NCBI GenBank assembly: GCA_009268125.1
Contig: WBOU01000004.1
Span: 282,136-346,135, forward strand
Origin: Chloroflexia bacterium SDU3-3
GTDB taxonomy: Bacteria > Chloroflexota > Chloroflexia > Chloroflexales > Roseiflexaceae
DNA: 64,000 bases
Direction of reading: 5' to 3'
Numbering within the stretch: position 1 is the stretch's first letter; every line of letters starts with the position of its first letter. The notes under the pieces were generated by a model. That model saw only the letters and a list, made by a program, of their open reading frames with translations. It ran no database searches and was not told the DNA's origin. The position numbers and the translations under genes were made by a program. Of this stretch, positions 3,490-52,080 are shown one piece after another.

Positions 3490-6400
3490 ATGGCATCCCG
3501 ACGGCTCCCCACCGTGCGCAACACCACGCTCTCGCTCGGCCCCGGCGAGCGCGACATCCCGCTGGACACGGCGGAGTGGTTCGCGTGGCTCGGCGGGGCC
3601 ACCTCGTTCTCGTACCAGGGCGCGGGCGGCGCGCTCACGGTGCGGCGCGAGCAGAAGGGCCGCCAGTGGTACTGGTACGCCTACCGCACCCAGGGGCGGC
3701 AGCTGCAGAAGCACTACCTGGGGCGCGACGCGGCGGTGACATCCGAGCGGCTGCGCGCCCTGGCCGCGCAGATGTCTGGGGCTGGCCAGCCTGCGGCAGC
3801 GCGCGCCGCCCTGTTCGGCACGGCGGCGATCTCGCTGGCGGGCCAGCCGGTGGCGCTGGGCGCGGCCAAGGCGCTGGGGCTGCTGGCCTACCTGGCCGCC
3901 CACGAGCAGCCCCAGCCGCGCGAGCAGCTGCTGGCCCTGCTGTGGCCCGACAGCGCGGGCGAGGCGGCCCGCAAGAACCTGCGCAACCTGCTGTGGAAGG
4001 TGCGCGCCGCGCTGGGCGAGGACACGGTGCAGGGCACCACCCACCTGTCGCTGCACGAGCGGGTCTGGACCGATGTGCGCGCCTTCCAGCAGGCCGCCCA
4101 CGCCGCCAGCGCGGCCCAGGCGGCGGGGCGCGCCCTGGCCAGCCCGCACCAGATCATCCGTCGGCTCTACCGTGGCCCGCTGCTCGACGGCCTGTCGTTC
4201 GGCGACGCCGCCGACTTCGAGCTGTGGCTGGTGGGCGCGCGCGAGTTCTACTTCGAGCGCTACCAGCAGGCCCTGGCCGCCCTGGTAGAATCCGCCCGCG
4301 CCGCCCAGCGCTGGGCCGAGGTGGCGCGGATCGCCCGCGAGGCGCTGGCCAGCGACCCGCTGCAGGAGCCAGCCCACCGCGCCCTGATCGAGGCCCACGC
4401 CCACATGGGCGACCGCGCCGCCGCCCTGCGCCAGTACGACGCCCTACGCGATGTGCTCCAGCGCGAGCTGGGCGTCGCGCCCCTGCCCGAGACCGAGCAG
4501 CTCCGCCTGGACATCCTGAGCGGCGACATGCCCCAGGCCGCGCCGCCCGCCCAGCCGCCCCAGGCCAGCCCCGCGCCGCTGATCGGGCGCGGGGCCGAGC
4601 TGGCGGCCATGCGCGAGGCCTGGCAGGCCACCGCCGGGCGCGCGCAGGTGGTGGCGCTCCAGGGCGAGGCGGGCATTGGCAAATCGCGCCTGTGGCAGGC
4701 CTGGCTGGCCGGGCTGGATGCCCGCCCCGCCTTGCTCGCGGCCCGCTGCCTGCCCATGACGCAGCACATGCCGCTGGCCCCCGCCATCGGCCTGCTGCGC
4801 GCCGAGCCATCCCGCGAGCGGCTGCTGGCTATGGCCAGCTTCACCCCGCCCAGCTGGCTGGCCGATCTGGCGCGGATCATGCCCGAGCTGCACGCACCCG
4901 CCCACCCGCTGCCCACGCCCCCCGCGCTGCCCCCCGCCGAGGAGCAGCTGCGCCTGTTCGAGGCGCTGGTGCTGGGCCTGGGGCTCGCGCCCGGCCAGCC
5001 CGCCGTGCTGGTGGTGGAGGATGTGCACTGGGCCGACAAGGCCACGCTCGACTGGCTGGGCTACCTGACCCACCGCGCCCAGGCCATGCCGCTGCTGGTG
5101 GTGATCACCTACCGCCCCGAGGAGCTGCCGCCCGCGCTGCTGGGGCTGGTGGCCGCCTGGTCGCAGGCCGGGCTGCTGCGCAAGATCGCGCTGGGCAGGC
5201 TCAGCCGCGACGAGACGGCGGCGCTGGTGGCCTCGCTGGTGGGCGACCTCAGCCAGGTCGAGCAGATCTACGCCCAGAGCGACGGCAACCCCTACTTCAT
5301 CAGCGAGCTGGCCCAGGCCGCCCCCGGCGACATCCCGGTGGCGCTCACCGACCTGATCGCCTCGCGGCTGGCCGCCCTCTCCGACGAGGCGCTGCAGGTC
5401 ATCCAGGCCGCCGCCGTGCTCCAGCCCGAGACCGACTTCTTCATGATCCAGCAGACCAGCGGCTGCGACGACGCGACCCTGCTGCGGGCGCTCGACCTGC
5501 TGCAGGCCGCCGGGCTGCTGCGCGACGACGGCGAGCGCTATGTGTTCGGCCACCCCCTGATCGCGGCGGTGGTGGAGCGCGGCCTGGGCAGCGCCCGCCG
5601 CGTGCTGCTGCACCGCCGCGCCGCCGCCGCCTGGGAGCGGCTGGAGCCAGCCCAGCTGCGGCTGGCCGCTGGCCGCATGGCCTGGCACTACCGCGAGGCG
5701 GGCGAGGGCAGCCGCGCCGCCCGCTACGCCGAGCAGGCGGGCGACCAGGCCCTGGCGCTCAACGCCAACGCCGAGGCCGCCCACTTCTACCAGATGGCGC
5801 ACGAGCTGGACCCGCACCCCGCCCGCATCTTCGGGCTGGGACTGGCCCGCTACCGCCTGAGCGAGCTAGACGCGGCGCGCGCCTGCTTCGAGGCCGCCGT
5901 GCAGGGCTACGAGGCGCAGGATGATACCAGAGGTGCGGCGATGGCCTGCCTAGAGCTGGCCCGCTCGTTCCTGGGCACGGGCGATGTGGGGAAGGTGCAG
6001 CTATGGGTGCAGCGCGGGCGGCAGCACCTGGCCGACGAGCAAGACCCCGTGGAGCAGGCCCGCGCGGCCTACCTGCTGGGCGCGAGCATGCGGGTCAGCG
6101 GTGGCTCGCTGGCCGAGGCCGCCAGCCTGCTGCGCAGAGCCTATGTGCTGGCCCAGCTGGGCAAGGCCCCCCAGCTGCTGCTCGACATCCTGCTGGAGCA
6201 GGGCAACGTGGCCGCGCAGCAGGGCGATCTGCCGCTGGCCATCCAGTTCTACCGCACCCTGGTGGCCAAGGGCGAGGCGGCAGATGAGGTGCTGGTGCGC
6301 GTGATCGGCCATAACAACCTGGCCTACCACGCCATGCTGCTGGGCGACATGGCCACCGCCCACGCCGATATCGACGCCGCCTTCGCCCTGGTCGAGCGCC

Positions 6401-50425: not shown

Positions 50426-51061
50426 ATGGCAGAAACATTCAAGCTCGAGTTTGAGACCCGCACCCTGTTTGGCAAGAAGGTCAACCGGCTGCGCCGCGAG
50501 GGCATCCTGCCCGCAACCGTGTACGGCAAGAACATCGGCCCGTTCGCCGTGCAGATCAACGGCCGCACCTTCAGCGATCTGGTGCGCAAGTCGGGCAAGA
50601 CCGGCCTGATCGAGGTTTCCATCCCCGGCCAGCCGGTGCGCACGGCGCTGGTGCACGCGGTCCAGCGGCACCCGGTCTCGCGCGAGTTCATCCACGCCGA
50701 CCTGCTGATCGTCGACCTGAAGACGGCGATCACGGTGGATGTGCCGGTGCACCTGATCGGCGAGTCGCCGGTGGTGAAGAACGAGGGCGCGGTGCTGAAC
50801 CACACGCTGTCCACGGTCTCGGTGCACGCGCTGCCCACCGAAATCCCCTCGCACATCGAGGTGGATGTGAGCGTGCTGGATAGCCTGGACAAGAACATCC
50901 TGGTCAGCGACATCAAGCTGCCCGGCGAGGCCACGATCGTGACCGCCGCCGACGAGGTGGTGGCCAGCGTGACCCCGGCCACCGTCGAGACTGCTCCCTC
51001 CGACGAGGCCCCGGCTGAGCCGGAGCTGGTGCGCGAGGATCGCGGCGCGGACGCCGAGTAG
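50426..51061 (+). CDS. rplY: Ribosomal protein bL25 (general stress protein Ctc type)
   Basis: 5S-rRNA-binding protein of 211 aa in the long Ctc/TL5 form: an N-terminal beta-barrel L25 domain (residues 1-95: GKKVNRLRREGILPATVYG, RTALVHAVQRHPVSREFIHADLL) and a C-terminal beta domain (about 96-185), ending in an acidic tail. AAGGAGC is about 10 nt upstream of the ATG. It has its own terminator. Confidence 0.95.
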   Translation: MAETFKLEFETRTLFGKKVNRLRREGILPATVYGKNIGPFAVQINGRTFSDLVRKSGKTGLIEVSIPGQPVRTALVHAVQRHPVSREFIHADLLIVDLKTAITVDVPVHLIGESPVVKNEGAVLNHTLSTVSVHALPTEIPSHIEVDVSVLDSLDKNILVSDIKLPGEATIVTAADEVVASVTPATVETAPSDEAPAEPELVREDRGADAE

Positions 51062-51118: not shown

Positions 51119-51160
51119 GGGACAAAAAAAGACCCTCGCCGTGGTGGCGAGGGTCTAGAC
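51119..51160 (-). terminator. Minus-strand intrinsic terminator of the 15-codon gene
   Basis: AGACCCTCGCC pairs with GGCGAGGGTCT; on the minus strand a T7 tract follows at once. It faces the rplY terminator and belongs to the micro-gene transcript starting near 51284. Confidence 0.88.
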
Positions 51161-51185
51161 ACAGGTCGGGCACTACCGGGGCAAC

Positions 51186-51233
51186 TTAGCGGGAAGCGCT
51201 CCCGGCAATGCCCATACGCATACTATCACTCAT
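51186..51233 (-). CDS. Predicted 15-residue micropeptide (own promoter, SD and terminator)
   Basis: ATG at 51233 encodes MSDSMRMGIAGSASR, then TAA. A perfect AAGGAGGTG ribosome site lies 8 nt upstream (51248-51240), and the transcript is bounded by a consensus-like promoter and a strong terminator. An in-frame ATG at 51239 would overlap the ribosome site. Alternatively the whole RNA is an sRNA and the reading frame incidental. No family recognised. Confidence 0.6.
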   Translation of the reverse strand: MSDSMRMGIAGSASR

Positions 51234-51290
51234 GGGCATCACCTCCTTTACGCCTGATCGGCATATCTCCAAATGATGCTGACAGGTGTT

Positions 51291-51319
51291 AGTATATATG
51301 CCGCATGACCAAATGTCAA
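51291..51319 (-). promoter_or_regulatory. Strong sigma-70 promoter of the micropeptide unit
   Basis: Minus strand TTGACA (51319-51314), a 17-bp spacer and TATACT (51296-51291). The predicted RNA is about 165 nt. Confidence 0.82.
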
Positions 51320-51359: not shown

Positions 51360-51827
51360 TCAGGGCGAGGTGAAGGTGGGCGTGGGCGTGAGGGTCTGCG
51401 CTGGGGTTGCTGGGGCGGCGGGCGCAGCCTCGGCGGTGGCATCGGCCACGGGCGTGCCCAGCACCAGGGTCTGGCTGATCAGCGAGGGGATGAGCAAAGC
51501 CTGGCCAACCTGCAGCGCGTCGGCGTCGGTCAGGCCATTGGCGGCCAGCAACTCCTCGACGGTGGAGCCGAACTCCCCGGCGATGCCACCGAGCGTGTCG
51601 TTCTGCTGCACGATGTAGAGACCAGCGGGCGTGGGCGTGGGGATGAGCTTGCTGGCGTACATGGTGGCGGTGGCGTCGATGTTCTGGGTGGGCGCTGGCG
51701 TGATCTCAAGGATGGTAGCTGCGGTCGGGCGGTTGAGGCTCGACTCGGGCGGGGCGCAGGCGCTCAGCGCGGGCAGCGCCAGGGCGGCGCTGGCCAGCAG
51801 CGCGCCGAGAGCGGGGGTGTATCGCAT
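51360..51827 (-). CDS. LysM-domain lipoprotein
   Basis: A 155-aa wall-associated protein. The signal peptide ends LSAC (about residue 24). One LysM domain follows at about residues 68-115 (GLYIVQQNDTLGGIAGEFGSTVEELLAANGL..LQVGQALLIPS), flanked by Thr/Pro/Ala-rich linkers. LysM binds peptidoglycan N-acetylglucosamine. No catalytic domain is attached, so it may be an anchor or adaptor. Confidence 0.85.
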   Translation of the reverse strand: MRYTPALGALLASAALALPALSACAPPESSLNRPTAATILEITPAPTQNIDATATMYASKLIPTPTPAGLYIVQQNDTLGGIAGEFGSTVEELLAANGLTDADALQVGQALLIPSLISQTLVLGTPVADATAEAAPAAPATPAQTLTPTPTFTSP

Positions 51828-52005: not shown

Positions 52006-52080
52006 CTAAATCTTCGGCGTCTTCTTGCTGATCTTCTGCTTATCCTGCTTCTGCTTGTTCTTCGGATTTTTGTCGCCCAT
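52006..52080 (-). CDS. Small Lys-rich protein (24 aa)
   Basis: A 24-aa, very basic peptide starting MGDKNPKNKQKQDKQK, with AAAGGAGC 7 nt before the ATG. Start and composition resemble a widespread but uncharacterised family of tiny MGDKSPK-type proteins. TATAAT at 52154-52149 with TAGGCA 17 bp further up (52177-52172) could be its promoter. A GGGGGC/GCCCCC hairpin follows near 51961-51986. Function unknown. Confidence 0.7.
   Translation of the reverse strand: MGDKNPKNKQKQDKQKISKKTPKI

Follow-up and report, generated by a model that had tools for sequence, protein, structure and literature searches.

A unit of roughly 170 nt on the minus strand of contig WBOU01000004.1 of Chloroflexia bacterium SDU3-3, lying within the 64,000-nt stretch of DNA that was analysed (here called the window), can be regarded with high confidence, on comparative sequence evidence, as a real, conserved and structured RNA gene that is probably translated. 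It represents an RNA gene family that is absent from Rfam 15. At the level of sequence, comparison of its members establishes the unit itself, a Shine-Dalgarno (SD) sequence complementary to 16S rRNA, a micro-ORF, covariation in one helix (B:A'), retained pairing in another (A:B), and near-equal predicted energies of the two folds. The parts of the unit and the genes that flank it are listed in Table 1.

Table 1. Parts of the unit and flanking genes, in positions of the window
Feature	Position	Strand	Remark
Promoter: TTGACA 51319-51314, spacer of 17 nt, TATACT 51296-51291	51291-51319	-	Scan match 11/12
P0: small hairpin GCC-GATCA-GGC, just 5' of the SD	51252-51262	-	Conserved among members
Extended SD AAAGGAGGTGAT, 12 nt	51238-51249	-	Complements the 16S 3' end AUCACCUCCUUU
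Segment A GGTGATGCCC: part of the SD and the bases preceding the start codon	51234-51243	-	Used for the A:B pair counts
Micro-ORF MSDSMRMGIAGSASR: 15 codons, ATG to TAA	51186-51233	-	Stop codon included
Segment B GGGCATTGCC, within the micro-ORF	51204-51213	-	Pairs with A or A'
Segment A' GGTAGTGCCC, 3' of the stop codon	51168-51177	-	B:A' hairpin encloses the stop codon
Intrinsic terminator: stem 51156-51130 (11 pairs, 8 of them G-C), then T7	51124-51156	-	
rplY, flanking gene	50426-51061	+	Pfam L25 and TL5_C
LysM gene, flanking gene	51360-51827	-	Pfam LysM

When the coordinates were re-read in the window, the promoter, SD, ORF and terminator were found as the original prediction had described them, all on the minus strand, and its claim that the unit has boundaries of its own between rplY and the LysM gene agrees with the Pfam assignments of both flanks. 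It overlooked how widely the unit is conserved and that a second complementary segment lies past the stop codon. The GGAGG core is separated from the ATG by 8 nt. A promoter scan of 16 kb returned 8 sites against 2.1 expected, with the promoter of the unit tying for the best, and the predicted fold of the RNA in the window lies about 6 standard deviations below shuffled sequences in energy (z = -5.97). The unit may be highly expressed, as was suggested, judging solely by the consensus of promoter and SD. In the 6.76-Mb assembly, the 12-mer AAAGGAGGTGAT has just two occurrences, each within a copy of the unit; the second copy (G000:C7:19652-19764; L021, approximately 1501-1613) encodes the peptide MSSQRQGIAGVAAR and keeps the fold. 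Another micro-ORF, of 24 lysine-rich codons (MGDKNPKNKQKQDKQKISKKTPKI), is located on the minus strand at 52006-52080 and is accompanied by an SD-like site and, at 52177-52149, a promoter-like one; a search of 39 other genomes recovered relatives in G003 and G013 alone.

A covariance model derived from 30 members (alignment A4), from which the A:B pairing was left out, identified the unit in 135 of the 158 genomes of the class Chloroflexia; for the 93 good genomes the figure is 88 (about 95%). The unit is nearly always in single copy, and scattered copies were found in other classes of Chloroflexota. A DNA search found it in 45 of 60 relatives. A pattern scan (SD, start codon and B) of 84,980 GTDB species yielded 76 stretches, all of them from Chloroflexota by title with one exception; many of the loci were gathered by a pattern that demands B-like letters. 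The exception (L133, JAAUTF010000045.1) is a MAG contig titled Candidatus Gracilibacteria with a copy and neighbours of the Chloroflexales type, and it is probably misbinned, because its upstream ORF groups with the LysM genes and its downstream ORF with other loci of the set. In a Thermomicrobiales MAG (L104, approximately 5810-5940), two convergent copies are found within about 120 bases, which represent either a real duplication or an assembly artefact. Viral contigs contained no match to the pattern, and a mobile or viral origin was rejected on this ground together with the presence of about one copy per genome and the shared flanks (LysM upstream, rplY downstream). Rfam 15 reported a single tRNA in the whole window, a permissive scan of the unit gave no score near a gathering threshold, and at 12 related loci no family match covered the unit. 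The model of the Chloroflexi-1 RNA (RF01698) matched only elsewhere in G054 and gave no match in G045 or G000. Identity with a known RNA family was discarded on the basis of the Rfam searches at gathering and permissive thresholds and of this direct test. In open-licence papers, neither a description of the unit nor a small-RNA map of Chloroflexus was found.

The transcription signals recur among the members. Of 81 members, 63 carry a promoter with a score of 9/12 or higher, compared with 4% of shuffled upstream sequences; this promoter mostly ends about 50-60 nt 5' of the start codon. A terminator-like hairpin is present in 72 of 81 members, compared with 22 of 81 shuffled sequences. The hallmarks of a dual-function small RNA, that is, a promoter and a terminator of its own and a short transcript, can be read from the sequence. 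The neighbouring genes were searched by tblastn over 84 loci, with representatives confirmed by Pfam: 39 loci have a LysM gene upstream on the same strand, 19 have rplY (L25) downstream in convergent orientation, and 16, Thermomicrobiales among them, have both. With ORFs chosen in a GC3-aware manner, 44 of 78 loci have their nearest downstream ORF on the opposite strand, and the identity of the downstream ORF varies among loci without any constant family. The LysM/rplY neighbourhood looks ancestral, and the unit appears tied to no gene.

Among 84 distinct members, 83 have an ORF of 13-18 codons, and ORF length differs mostly by multiples of three; the non-ORF frames are open in 7 and 4 of the 84. 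The phases (modulo 3) of the ATG-to-B and B-to-stop distances are (2,1) in 80 members and (1,2) in 4, with the ORF always intact. The latter four are of the Ardenticatenia type and read B in another frame, with an unrelated peptide and an intact ORF; a fifth member with B in an alternative frame is L202. The peptide is entirely different with B in an alternative frame (MDASTRCLSPWASPEGRR) and in other distant members as well, for example MDVSCKSRAASVRSR. Frame-breaking substitutions in close relatives, which the original prediction had named as evidence that would count against it, were searched for and none was found; two relatives (L007 and L140) have merely lost the usual stop, and their ORFs extend to 21 and 24 codons without an early break. 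At the C-terminal codons, where the position entropies are 0.97/1.38/1.61, the mean BLOSUM score is 1.08 in frame versus -0.39 and -0.17, a result reached by 3 of 200 column permutations, and a peptide motif, G[IV][TA]x(G)E[VA], recurs. The N-terminal codons AGT and CGT display hardly any synonymous-site variation, and the N-terminal codons show no variation of the coding type. The proposed check of peptide against RNA conservation has a two-sided outcome: the ORF is kept with a moderate amino-acid signal at the C-terminus, and a fold maintained by compensatory changes involves the SD and the ORF as well as the 3' untranslated part. Selection appears to act on ORF and fold alike, and the exact peptide seems to be secondary, at least between classes. 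The initial choice between a micropeptide and a small RNA finds comparative support for each of its terms, although not for the either/or, since both hold at once.

The SD is complementary to 12 bases of the 16S 3' end, which was taken from relatives because Rfam identified no 16S gene in the assembly of the strain itself. Across 82 members, 38 of the 41 substitutions in the SD 12-mer are A to G, with the 16S pairing retained, and the last two bases of A are variable. In genome G042, all six RAAGGAGGTGAT sites belong to the unit or are antisense to 16S 3' ends. In four loci of one family (L063, L070, L091 and L105), CCTCCTT or a similar sequence is found directly 3' of A'; this direct complement of the SD would be another way to hide it. 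The energies predicted for the window are -22.5 kcal/mol for the A:16S duplex, -21.7 for the A:B hairpin and -30.5 for the B:A' hairpin.

Helices A:B and B:A' exclude each other because B is common to both. In B:A', 97.3% of cells are paired, with 22 double-change cells, and none of 500 shuffles was as good; in the 82 divergent members, double changes are present at 9 of the 10 pairs. The P0 hairpin, with 88% of cells paired, has double changes at each of its three pairs. The A:B helix is 99% paired in the main set and changes there by G-U only, because A is nearly fixed. In the 82 members, 96% of its cells are paired versus 21-66% for slid structures, and 10 double-change cells are observed versus 0.8 in shuffled alignments, the same count being 11 in a control slid by -2 as against these 10 in the true register. 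In divergent genomes, the A/B pair GATGCCC/GGGCATC is replaced by GATGCTA/TAGCATC and GATGCGA/TCGCATC. Such compensatory changes, from C-G to A-U, U-A or G-C, are confined to a few divergent groups, and the A:B covariation comes from a few lineages because A hardly varies in the main orders. The constrained fold energies of the 82 members average -42.5 kcal/mol with A:B and -43.9 kcal/mol with B:A', a similarity that arises partly by construction because A and A' are near-copies. When successive prefixes of the window RNA are folded, the prediction is A:B at a length of 82 nt and B:A' once 118 nt is reached. For a leader segment at approximately 51272-51279, which resembles one in L002, pairing with A is predicted after B moves to A', making the segment a possible third competitor for A; this pairing looks lineage-specific and complicates the picture of a switch.

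The reading adopted here, for which the chances appear about even, takes the unit for a bistable micro-mRNA that stands alone, is translated and has helices gating its own SD, which would be opened by the transcribed A' and closed by B once a ribosome terminates. In the nascent RNA, B would pair first with A and hide half of the SD and the start codon; after transcription of A', B would shift to A' and leave the SD free for a 30S subunit to bind over 12 base pairs. A ribosome translating the 13-18 codons would then unwind B:A', because the stop codon sits within this hairpin, and B could re-pair with A behind it and close the SD, so that the switch would be reset in every round of translation. 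We infer the cellular use of the alternation, its order and its reset by translation. A free-standing switch without a regulated downstream gene is unusual, which speaks against this reading. A broader proposal, tentative and on balance doubtful, is that the unit serves across the class as a free-standing sensor of the capacity for translation initiation, in which free 30S subunits and B would compete for a near-maximal SD, and the outcome would set the fold, the translation and the fate of the RNA with no downstream gene involved.

The evidence for the micro-ORF can also be explained if the unit is a small mRNA for a functional micropeptide and the folds merely set its expression level, a possibility to be taken seriously despite being rather unlikely. 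It would account for the intact ORF throughout, the coding-type variation at the C-terminal codons and the recurring motif, and Spot 42 provides a precedent in which a 15-residue peptide can act (PMC10339803), but the peptide is wholly changed in alternative-frame and distant members, and the near-invariance of AGT and CGT at synonymous sites implies that conservation concerns the nucleotide sequence to a large extent. Alternatively, the near-maximal SD might capture free 30S subunits, with the state of A:B and B:A' reporting their amount, so that the unit would act as a sensor or sponge. The near-invariance of the 12 bases matching 16S, next to bases of A that vary with B, the nearly equal energies of A:16S and A:B, and the six sites of G042 are all consistent with such a role; titration, however, would require thousands of copies per cell, and a sponge has no need for an ORF with a stop codon; this explanation is considered improbable.

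A trans-acting small RNA that regulates mRNAs through pairing of A, B or A' would agree with the size, the strong promoter, the terminator and the presence of short conserved segments (A/A' and B), but the three segments co-vary within lineages, as expected for an internal fold, and an ORF across B would be an odd constraint; this role is considered very unlikely. Even more remote is a leader-peptide attenuator that controls the next gene by terminator readthrough. The SD, start codon, stop-containing hairpin and terminator do resemble those of the fthC and ilvB motif uORF attenuators (PMC11109978), but the downstream ORF is frequently on the opposite strand and inconstant in identity, and in the window A' and the terminator stem are 11 nt apart, without overlap, and rplY converges on the unit. 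Attenuation of a downstream gene is largely refuted by neighbourhoods that lack a constant same-strand gene.

That an RNA gene is near-universal and usually single-copy in an entire class, yet missing from the catalogue searched, suggests that it has a housekeeping function. An attenuator-like switch, a micro-ORF and an SD with nearly complete complementarity to 16S come together in a transcript that has no gene to regulate. If the bistable micro-mRNA reading is true, the unit would offer a compact natural system for the interplay of ribosome availability and RNA refolding, and it would illustrate how readily annotation overlooks conserved ORFs of very short length. In hok-type mRNAs of type I toxin-antitoxin systems, mutually exclusive helices govern access to the translation start, and the encoded peptides are membrane toxins. 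The unit similarly has exclusive helices at the translation start, but its peptides, for example MSDSMRMGIAGSASR and MSSHGTEGITVEAARR, are short and, by inspection, hydrophilic, unlike the hydrophobic hok-type membrane toxins, and a cursory look revealed no antisense RNA. Spot 42, a dual-function RNA of E. coli with the 15-residue peptide SpfP (PMC10339803), shares with the unit a short free-standing transcript and a 15-codon ORF; it is, however, an enterobacterial base-pairing small RNA, whereas for the unit no target, chaperone or homology is known and the ORF lies inside switching helices behind a near-maximal SD. The fthC and ilvB uORF attenuators comprise an SD, a start codon, a stem able to carry the stop codon and a terminator (PMC11109978), and the unit likewise has a short ORF with an SD, a stop codon in a stem and a terminator, but these attenuators precede a constant regulated gene and the unit stands alone. 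The Chloroflexi-1 RNA (RF01698) is comparable as another structured RNA of Chloroflexus and differs in place, being located at 822-881 kb in G054, where the unit is at 2.337 Mb. While fully a member of none of these classes, the unit works like attenuator leaders and dual-function RNAs.
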